Shown here: positions 15,900 to 17,947 of the stretch, piece after piece | Layout of the letters: every line of letters starts with the position of its first letter | Position numbering within the stretch: the first letter of the stretch is position 1 | From: Halobacterium salinarum DSM 3754 | Lineage (GTDB): Archaea > Halobacteriota > Halobacteria > Halobacteriales > Halobacteriaceae | Assembly: GCF_008124605.1 (NCBI RefSeq) | Contig: NZ_VRYN01000002.1 | Location: 434,001-498,000, forward strand | DNA: 64,000 nt | Reading direction: 5' to 3' | Made by a program: the position numbers and the translations under genes | The notes under the pieces: generated by a model | Databases searched by the model: none | What the model was told of the DNA's origin: nothing | The model's input: only the letters and a program-made list of their open reading frames with translations

Positions 15900-16418
15900 A
15901 TGTCGAAAGTCACGTTCCGCGCGGACGACGACCTCGTTGCCGCGGTCGAAGACCTCGACGCCTCGAAAAGCGAGGTGATGCGCAACGCGCTCCGTGCGTA
16001 CCTCACCACCCACGCTGCGGCCGACGACGTCCCCGTAGAGAGCGTAAACACGCCAGTGCGTGGGGCTGCGACCGACGCGCAAAAGGACGTAAACGTCACG
16101 ATTCGCGTGTCGTCCCCGTCGGCGGTTGAGGAGGTGCGAACGACCCCGGCCAGCGGGGGGCGCGCGGACGCCGAGGAACCCGGAGACGACGGCGAGACCG
16201 ACGCGGAGCACGCCGACACATCGGCGACGGGCGACGAGAGCGTGTGCAGTCAGTGCGGGGCGGAGCTGTCAGCCGACCACGTCTACTGTCCGAACTGCGG
16301 TGGGAAGGCGACGCATCGCGTGTTCTGCGAGTGCGGCGACGAGATCCGGGCGGATTGGGCGTTCTGTCCGCGGTGTGGCCGCCGAACGGTGTCCGGGGAC
16401 GCCCTCGACAGCGCATAG
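15900..16418 (+). CDS. cdrL: CdrL-type regulator: ribbon-helix-helix plus double zinc ribbon
   Basis: A 172-residue protein. Residues 1-36 (MSKVTFRADDDLVAAVEDLD.. SEVMRNALRAYL) form a ribbon-helix-helix DNA-binding domain. A long acidic linker follows, then from about residue 117 four CxxC pairs (CSQCG, CPNCGG, CECG, CPRCGRR) making two zinc ribbons. This matches CdrL, the 'long' partner of CdrS in Halobacterium salinarum, reported to act upstream of cdrS-ftsZ2; that identification is by position and architecture from memory. Its stop codon touches the first of four GTAAGAC boxes (16418-16424). A TATA-like AAGCTTATC lies about 32-40 bp before the ATG. Confidence 0.8.
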   Translation: MSKVTFRADDDLVAAVEDLDASKSEVMRNALRAYLTTHAAADDVPVESVNTPVRGAATDAQKDVNVTIRVSSPSAVEEVRTTPASGGRADAEEPGDDGETDAEHADTSATGDESVCSQCGAELSADHVYCPNCGGKATHRVFCECGDEIRADWAFCPRCGRRTVSGDALDSA

Positions 16419-16424
16419 TAAGAC
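16418..16424 (+). promoter_or_regulatory. GTAAGAC box 1 of cdrS-ftsZ2 upstream region
   Basis: First of four copies of a 7-bp motif in the cdrL-cdrS interval. This copy is in forward orientation and overlaps the cdrL TAG stop (catAGTAAGACat). Confidence 0.5.
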
Positions 16425-16439
16425 ATCTGTTTACACCGC

Positions 16440-16458
16440 CGTTAATTATTTATTCTAA
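16440..16458 (+). promoter_or_regulatory. AT-rich candidate promoter for cdrS-ftsZ2
   Basis: CGTTAATTATTTATTCTAA is the most AT-rich stretch between cdrL and cdrS and a plausible TATA/BRE region. If used, transcription would start near 16,470 and the cdrS mRNA would carry a leader of over 100 nt containing boxes 2-4. This is unusual for haloarchaea, so an additional promoter closer to the cdrS ATG is possible. Confidence 0.4.
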
Positions 16459-16489
16459 GCTCCTGTGTGTTCTCGTACGTGAGACGGTC

Positions 16490-16496
16490 GTCTTAC
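16490..16496 (-). promoter_or_regulatory. GTAAGAC box 2 (inverted, GTCTTAC)
   Basis: Second copy, inverse orientation, flanked CGTCTTACAC. It follows the AT-rich stretch by about 30 bp. Confidence 0.5.
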
Positions 16497-16541
16497 ACAG
16501 AACCACCGGACTGCGCTGCCCCTTGGCGTCAGAACGGCCGT

Positions 16542-16548
16542 GTAAGAC
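16542..16548 (+). promoter_or_regulatory. GTAAGAC box 3
   Basis: Third copy, forward orientation (TGTAAGACAC). With box 4 it forms an inverted repeat whose halves start 29 bp apart, a geometry compatible with two ribbon-helix-helix dimers on the same face of DNA. Confidence 0.55.
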
Positions 16549-16570
16549 ACGGAGACGGGAAACCGGGTCC

Positions 16571-16577
16571 GTCTTAC
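16571..16577 (-). promoter_or_regulatory. GTAAGAC box 4 (inverted, GTCTTAC)
   Basis: Fourth copy, inverse orientation, 18 bp before the cdrS ATG. Boxes alternate +,-,+,- across the 170-bp interval. Confidence 0.55.
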
Positions 16578-16595
16578 CAACACGGGGATACAACA

Positions 16596-16763
16596 ATGGA
16601 GCGTGTGACACTCCGGATTCCGGAACAACAGATCGACGAGGTGGAACAGATGGTCGAACGCGGGAAGTTCCCTAATCGGAGCGAGGCGATTCGCTCCGCT
16701 GTTCGAGAGATGATTGATGAACACACCGACAAGACTGGTGCAAAGAGCTGGGCGAAAGTTTAA
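16596..16763 (+). CDS. cdrS: CdrS, short ribbon-helix-helix cell-division regulator
   Basis: A 55-residue protein, [20 protein letters not shown].., that is entirely one ribbon-helix-helix (MetJ/Arc/CopG) domain: the beta strand RVTLRIP, helix A to about residue 23, the turn [11 protein letters not shown] and helix B to about residue 42, then a short basic tail. The size, fold and position directly before ftsZ2 match CdrS of H. salinarum, reported to control ftsZ2 and cell division. The stop is 2 bp before the ftsZ2 ATG, so the two are co-transcribed and probably co-translated. The four GTAAGAC boxes upstream are natural candidates for CdrS and/or CdrL operators. Confidence 0.88.
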
Positions 16764-16765
16764 CC

Positions 16766-17947
16766 ATGCAAGATATCGTCCAGGACGCACTTGACAACGC
16801 CGAGGCGGAACAGCGCGAAATGGATGGCGACGGCGATGGTGACGAGTTCGGAGACCCCCGGATCGTCATCGTCGGTTGTGGCGGCGCAGGCAACAATACG
16901 GTCAACCGACTGTACAACATCGGCGTCGAAGGCGCGGACACGGTAGCGATCAACACTGACAAACAGCACCTGAAGATGATCAAAGCCGACACGAAGATCC
17001 TCGTCGGCAAGTCCCTGACCAACGGCCTCGGTGCGGGTGGCGACCCCTCGATGGGCGAGCGCGCCACCGAGATGGCCCAGGGAACGATCAAAGAGGTGCT
17101 CGGGGACGCGGACTTGGTGTTCGTCACCGCCGGCATGGGCGGTGGCACGGGGACCGGTGCAGCGCCGGTCGTCTCGAAGATCGCCAAAGAGCAGGGCGCA
17201 ATCGTCGTTGGGATGGTGTCGACGCCGTTCAACGTCGAGCGCGCTCGCACGGTCAAAGCCGAGGAAGGCTTGGAGAAGCTGCGCGAGAAAGCCGACTCGA
17301 TTATCGTCCTCGACAACAACCGGCTGCTGGATTACGTCCCGAACCTCCCGATCGGGAAGGCGTTCTCCGTGATGGACCAGATCATCGCGGAAACCGTCAA
17401 GGGGATCAGCGAGACGATCACCCAACCCAGCCTCATCAACCTCGACTACGCCGACATGACTGCGATCATGAACCAGGGCGGCGTCGCGGTGATGCTCGTC
17501 GGGGAGACCCAGGACAAAAACAAGACCAACGAGGTCGTCAAAGACGCGATGAACCACCCACTGTTGGACGTCGATTACCGGGGTGCCAGTGGCGGCCTCG
17601 TCCACATCACTGGTGGGCCGGACCTCACGCTGAAGGAGGCCGAGGGCATCGCGGACAACATCACCGAGCGGTTGGACGCGAGCGCGAACGTCATCTGGGG
17701 GGCGCGGATCCAGGAGAGCTACAAGGGCAAGGTGCGCGTCATGGCGATCATGACCGGCGTGCAGTCCGCGCAGGTGCTCGGCCCGAGCACGCAGAAGCAG
17801 GCGGACAAGTCCCGCCGCGAGCTGCAGGACGTCGACTCCAAGCAGCGCGCGGCCGACGACGCTGGAGCCGGCGGGTTCGGTGGCGCACACTCGGACGGCG
17901 GCCAGGACGAAGTCGAGCAGGAAAACGGCCTCGACGTCATCCGATAA
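16766..17947 (+). CDS. ftsZ2: cell division GTPase FtsZ (FtsZ2 type)
   Basis: A 393-residue tubulin-superfamily GTPase. After a ~30-residue acidic extension the GTP-binding domain starts ([20 protein letters not shown]). The tubulin signature GGGTGTG is at 125-131, and the T7 loop [17 protein letters not shown] is near 228-244. The C-terminal domain has '[15 protein letters not shown]' and '[26 protein letters not shown]', then an acidic linker to a short terminal peptide ENGLDVIR that may bind SepF. It polymerises into the division ring in the cytosol. Many haloarchaea encode FtsZ1 and FtsZ2; the linked cdrS favours FtsZ2, though older annotation labels this gene ftsZ1. Convergent with ncsA. 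Confidence 0.93.

Follow-up and report, generated by a model that had tools for sequence, protein, structure and literature searches.

Ribbon-helix-helix (RHH) repressors such as Arc, MetJ, CopG and NikR recognise DNA via a ribbon and bind as paired dimers to half-sites that lie approximately one helical turn apart. The closest described system to the locus examined here is the CdrSL network of Halobacterium salinarum (Darnell 2020, PMC7439475), which comprises the same genes in the same order. ChIP-seq with CdrL-FLAG in that organism returned the region upstream of cdrS-ftsZ2 as the sole reproducible target, with a peak spanning the whole of the upstream region, i.e. binding was described at the level of the region (PMC7439475). 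No motif appears in the main text of that paper. What the present analysis contributes is the operator, with its ancestry and its single occurrence per genome, and the leader RNA. The second comparator is the CdrS regulon of Haloferax volcanii (Liao 2021, PMC8406309), in which an RHH regulator likewise uses a symmetric site, and whose deduced sites share an 18-bp geometry with the present one. However, the half-site in that case is GTCNGAC as opposed to GTAAGAC, the targets are many as opposed to one, and the cdrS promoter is not listed amongst them. Since FtsZ2 supply governs haloarchaeal division, it is of some consequence that the regulator which binds its promoter is without a defined site in the literature found.

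Among proteins of solved structure, those closest to CdrL in sequence include NikR and CopG-type proteins, from which CdrL differs in having a double zinc ribbon and in that its array of boxes runs on through the transcribed leader. The latter resembles structured mRNA leaders (riboswitches and protein-binding leaders) in having covarying stems in a 5' leader that end at the ribosome-binding site, but here there is no Rfam match and the stems are built on operator boxes.

Boxes and core palindrome between cdrL and cdrS-ftsZ2

The window, i.e. the whole 64-kb stretch of DNA that was analysed, contains four exact copies of the heptamer GTAAGAC, at 16418 and 16542 on the forward strand and, as GTCTTAC, at 16490 and 16571, and no others. 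The first-pass annotation had described these as four perfect boxes in alternating orientation, the first overlapping the cdrL stop codon and the last two set 29 bp apart start to start; all were found where it had placed them, with the first box beginning on the final base of the TAG (16416-16418). The features to which the text refers are as follows.

15900-16418, forward strand: cdrL, encoding an RHH domain, a disordered linker and a double zinc ribbon (ORF, Pfam, AF2)
16418-16424, forward strand: box A, GTAAGAC, upstream of the BRE/TATA and overlapping the cdrL stop codon
16440-16454, forward strand: predicted BRE (16440-16445) and TATA box (16446-16453), a T/A block conserved in 81 loci
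16479-16485, forward strand: box B, GTGAGAC (GTAAGAC in relatives), from sequence and locus comparison
16490-16496, reverse strand: box C, which with box B forms the core palindromic operator (putative), 16479-16496
16479-16577, forward strand: predicted leader RNA element comprising P1 (B:E), P2 (C:D plus extension) and P3, from folding and covariation
16497-16541, forward strand: P2 stem-loop sequence between boxes C and D (arm-swap z -7.9)
16542-16548, forward strand: box D, in most relatives the predicted pairing partner of C within the leader RNA
16549-16570, forward strand: P3 hairpin between boxes D and E (arm-swap z -5.8)
16571-16577, reverse strand: box E, in most relatives the predicted pairing partner of B within the leader RNA
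16583-16587, forward strand: Shine-Dalgarno-like GGGGA immediately after box E
16596-16763, forward strand: cdrS, encoding a 55-residue RHH protein with ribbon R3-V-T5-L-R7 (Pfam RHH_1, 37.4 bits)
16766-17947, forward strand: ftsZ2 (Pfam Tubulin and FtsZ_C)

The window-wide count of GTAAGAC is by itself not significant (4 versus 2.1 expected). However, since the whole genome (2.36 Mb) contains only 27 copies, four of which fall in this interval, four boxes in a span of 160 bp greatly exceed what chance would give (approximately 1e-8 clusters of this kind expected). There is also a fifth box, GTGAGAC at 16479-16485, which departs from the heptamer at a single base. It lies 11 bp ahead of the 16490 box and had been overlooked in the original inventory of four, which otherwise stands. 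This box is an exact GTAAGAC in all 80 of the other haloarchaeal loci first compared. The inverted repeat previously assigned to the last two boxes has the spacing claimed for it, but the tight inverted repeat is formed by the 16479/16490 pair. The resulting 18-bp core in the window reads GTgAGAC-GGTC-GTCTTAC and is situated at the predicted transcription start.

Conservation of the core palindrome was examined across 394 haloarchaeal genomes, in 311 of which an exact GTAAGAC-N4-GTCTTAC is present, as a single copy in 310 and as two copies in one; the reversed-motif control was found in 1 of the 394. The palindrome was located 75-105 nt ahead of the sequence ATGGARCG, this being the distance range tested, in 201 of the 394. 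At the level of individual loci, 78 of 80 have a perfect GTAAGAC-N4/5-GTCTTAC upstream of cdrS (60 with N4, 18 with N5), and the remaining two, both from Haloquadratum, have a degenerate right arm. Box B and position C-1 are invariant across the compared loci, save for the single G in the window. Twenty further genomes were opened, comprising 19 without the exact palindrome and one positive control; in 18 of the 20, those with a cdrS match, the core is kept in the same place, with a spacer of 2, 3, 4 or 5 bp or a change in one arm. Outside the haloarchaeal class the palindrome was found in just 1 of 77 relatives, with a 2-bp spacer. Alignment with other Halobacteria had been put forward in the first-pass annotation as a check on the boxes, and these data indicate that they are indeed kept. 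Half-site spacing between B and C, measured in 94 promoters, is 11 bp in 63, 12 bp in 28 and 9-10 bp in 3, and falls within the separation of about one helical turn (8-12 bp) expected of an RHH operator occupied by two dimers. The single genome with a second palindrome (G241, L093:1501-1518) carries it some 320 bp ahead of a frame for a DDE transposase; given its position near a transposase gene, this copy was set aside as likely due to chance.

The layout of the surrounding promoter was compared in 81 loci, in which a TATA-like block is present at -33 to -26 relative to box B and a BRE-like block at approximately -40 to -34. The positions of these blocks lead to the expectation that transcription starts at about 16474-16478, just before box B, with the core on top of the start. 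The reported length of the Haloferax cdrS mRNA, approximately 250 nt, is shorter than predicted from a 125-nt leader and counts against a start at this position. Box A is more variable. In relatives it is mostly found either in the forward orientation 61-65 bp upstream of box B, or in the reverse orientation approximately 52 bp upstream; its helical phasing with the core is inconsistent (65, 61 or 52 bp), and an exact copy is absent from 22 of 99 promoters. Downstream, a purine run separates box E from the ATG in 96 of 96 loci.

CdrL and CdrS as candidate readers of the boxes

The genes on either side of the interval both encode RHH proteins. The ribbon of CdrL reads S-K3-V-T5-F-R7, with helices at residues 10-17 and 23-39. 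Its RHH fold is indicated by a Pfam RHH_1 score of 19.7 bits, just under the cut-off of 20.5, by profile matches to CopG and NikR chains, and by the helix-helix topology of a low-confidence AF2 model; the double zinc ribbon (DZR) scores 34.7 bits. Foldseek searches with the CdrL model returned zinc-finger matches only and were of no value. Residues K3, T5 and R7 are conserved in 98 of 98 CdrL homologues, and the CdrS N-terminus, MERVTLRIP, in 99 of 99 loci, as are its R3, T5 and R7.

An operator array read by CdrL, CdrS or both had been proposed for the interval. The CdrL part of that proposal is supported by the conserved position of the palindrome and by its occurrence once per genome upstream of cdrS-ftsZ2 (310 of 311 genomes; 78 of 80 loci), which matches the single reproducible target of CdrL in ChIP-seq (PMC7439475). 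The predicted CdrL site can be given base by base, and accounts for that single target. The CdrS part is not supported. ChIP-seq with CdrS in Hfx. volcanii identified 18 sites, and the cdrS promoter is not among them (PMC8406309). A CdrS site was deduced here from the DNA upstream of ftsZ1 in ten genomes, where GTCNGAC-N4-GTCNGAC, with at most one mismatch, is present within 160 bp before ftsZ1 in 10 of 10 (0.003 expected). The deduced site is directly upstream of the ftsZ1 promoter in 9 of 10 genomes, and in Haloferax relatives it coincides with the position published for Haloferax (-50; PMC8406309). GTCNGAC was judged by paired spacing and position, since counts alone were uninformative in a control with GC-rich haloarchaeal DNA. 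Haloarchaeal cdrS promoters do not have this arrangement, having A at position 3 of the box where the ftsZ1 sites have C.

Ten independent non-haloarchaeal cdrS promoters contain 23 GTCNGAC boxes, versus 0.23 expected, spaced by 11, 22 or 33 bp, and these arrays, phased at 11 bp, suggest ancestral autoregulation by CdrS. No cdrL was seen amongst the flanking genes of cdrS outside the class, an absence also reported in the published work, and the presence there of GTCNGAC arrays indicates that operators of this family predate CdrL. Judged by sequence, the haloarchaeal cdrS promoter boxes look like a one-base variant (C3 to A) of the CdrS-type box.

That the boxes are CdrS sites, via which CdrS controls its own operon, is consistent with this sister box in CdrS-linked promoters outside Halobacteria, and with the decrease in ftsZ2 on deletion of cdrS in Hbt. 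salinarum (PMC7439475), such that some CdrS input is possible in this genus. Nonetheless, the Haloferax ChIP-seq data (PMC8406309), the GTCNGAC rather than GTAAGAC form of CdrS-type sites at ftsZ1 promoters, and the restriction of the A3 form to the class that possesses CdrL render this explanation very unlikely. Assignment to CdrL is preferred, and we infer that Lys3 of CdrL would read the A3 half of the box. The array would then descend from an older CdrS-type operator, with GTCNGAC every 11 bp, in which a change of C3 to A in each box was matched to the paralogue (Arg3 in CdrS, Lys3 in CdrL), perhaps freeing the promoter from CdrS. The proposed change in specificity that separates the paralogues would be minimal: one residue and one base. 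CdrS boxes are symmetric (GTC-N-GAC), whereas CdrL boxes are asymmetric (GTA-A-GAC), and a mixed CdrL-CdrS dimer is possible on that account.

Exact CdrS-type palindromes are found at only two places in the genome of the window. GTCAGAC-N4-GTCTGAC, at C1:724525-724542 (L189:1501-1518), lies between an OapB-linked GTPase operon and a gene for an AAA ATPase; the latter may be Orc1/Cdc6-like, and the site hence possibly at a replication origin. GTCTGAC-N4-GTCCGAC, at C2:236093-236110 (L190:1501-1518), immediately precedes a frame for a bactofilin (polymer-forming cytoskeletal) and lies downstream of a proteasomal-type AAA ATPase.

Direction of control at the promoter

The boxes are probably an operator for CdrL, most plausibly a repressing one, that overlaps a structured leader RNA. 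Two CdrL dimers, or mixed dimers, would bind core B/C, over the point where transcription is predicted to begin, with roughly one helical turn between them, the exact contacts being conjectural, with box A, upstream of the BRE/TATA, assisting binding. Access of the polymerase would most likely be limited as a result, making CdrL a putative governor (repressor) of FtsZ2 and CdrS supply. Repression or throttling is favoured by the location of the best-conserved element, which coincides with the predicted start site, although the position of box A upstream of the BRE means that activation, or a two-sided complex, is conceivable. Second-site mutations in the published cdrL deletion strain prevent those data from deciding the direction of control (PMC7439475).

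If CdrL were instead an activator, box A would be the working site and B/C would merely modulate. Activators in archaea usually bind the DNA ahead of a promoter (PMC8406309), the cdrS-ftsZ2 promoter is very strong, and binding of CdrL was seen in both growth phases (PMC7439475), all of which would fit. Conversely, the core at the start site, which is a repressor position, is the most conserved element, and 22 of 99 promoters have no exact box A; activation via box A is considered rather unlikely on these grounds.

The leader RNA

Folded from 4 nt before box B, the leader in most species pairs B with E and C with D, the latter extended by a long stem, with a third hairpin between D and E. To judge from these predictions, the leader in most relatives appears to form a three-way junction. 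The operator array originally proposed is supported, but the description missed the core palindrome and the signs that the second to fifth boxes belong to a transcribed, base-paired and conserved leader. A model of the leader (R1), when searched against the genome, matched only this leader well (E 5e-16; next place 0.13), and Rfam scans of the leader returned no family match. Where box D is lacking, a hairpin after C is still predicted, with varying strength.

Support for the stems was derived from stem-keeping changes across species. The sequence of P2 varies while its complementarity is kept, as judged by arm swaps and pair counts. When halves of the stems were swapped among 31 species sharing less than 75% identity, pairing was destroyed, with z scores of -7.9 for P2 and -5.8 for P3, and the effect was stronger on the sense strand, as expected of an RNA in which G-U pairs form. 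Of six control regions nearby, five were within ±1 on the sense strand, the exception being the start of ftsZ2 (z -3.3). Pair counts revealed changes on both sides of stems adjoining the boxes, including GC to AU in P1; covariation was 0.123 compared with 0.077 in shuffles, and both measures exceeded all 500 shuffles. The native fold has B:E at 0.77, C:D at 0.80 and B:C at 0.14, whereas shuffling between the boxes gave local B:C hairpins (0.69), indicating that the fold is not a trivial outcome of the repeated boxes. RNAalifold on a MAFFT alignment returned local B:C and D:E hairpins and was set aside; arm swaps and box-preserving shuffles were preferred since variable stems were misaligned by MAFFT.

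Could the boxes act only as RNA, as the paired strands of the leader, with DNA binding elsewhere? The strong covariation between the boxes and the B:E and C:D fold would be expected in that case. However, box A, with an identical 7-mer in one orientation or the other, precedes the TATA box and is no part of this transcript, all of the boxes have one invariant sequence, of which pairing alone has no need, and single-arm changes that break pairing do occur (D = GTATGAC). A role confined to RNA is accordingly judged highly improbable, and the preferred reading is still that of a CdrL operator, the transcribed part of which (B-E) would, in most species, fold into a junction that ends beside the ribosome-binding site and probably tunes translation or stability.

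The species of the window is itself finely balanced, the three-way junction having a predicted energy of -49.6 kcal/mol versus -50.0 kcal/mol for local hairpins (B:E 0.25, B:C 0.73), and the median advantage of the junction across 68 species is only 2.6 kcal/mol; a two-state leader is conceivable as a consequence. Rather tentatively, the same sequences may serve both as the CdrL operator and as the arms of such a leader (B:C plus D:E versus B:E plus C:D), with the box GTA-A-GAC, half CdrL-like and half CdrS-like, perhaps being read by a mixed CdrL-CdrS dimer. If this is true, a single sequence would encode control of the FtsZ2 operon at both the transcriptional and the post-transcriptional level. 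Post-transcriptional control of cdrS-ftsZ2 in Hbt. salinarum has been proposed from a comparison of RNA-seq with Ribo-seq (PMC8303175), while the leader RNA as a second layer of control has, as far as found, no earlier description. If functional, it would rank among the few cis-regulatory RNAs of archaea, and might account for the reported disagreement between the amount of the operon's mRNA and its occupancy by ribosomes (PMC8303175).

Finally, the early part of ftsZ2 that stood out amongst the controls, approximately 250-298 nt past the cdrS start codon (z -3.3; 31 loci), may contain RNA structure of its own, and a processing site has been reported inside ftsZ2 near this region (PMC8303175).
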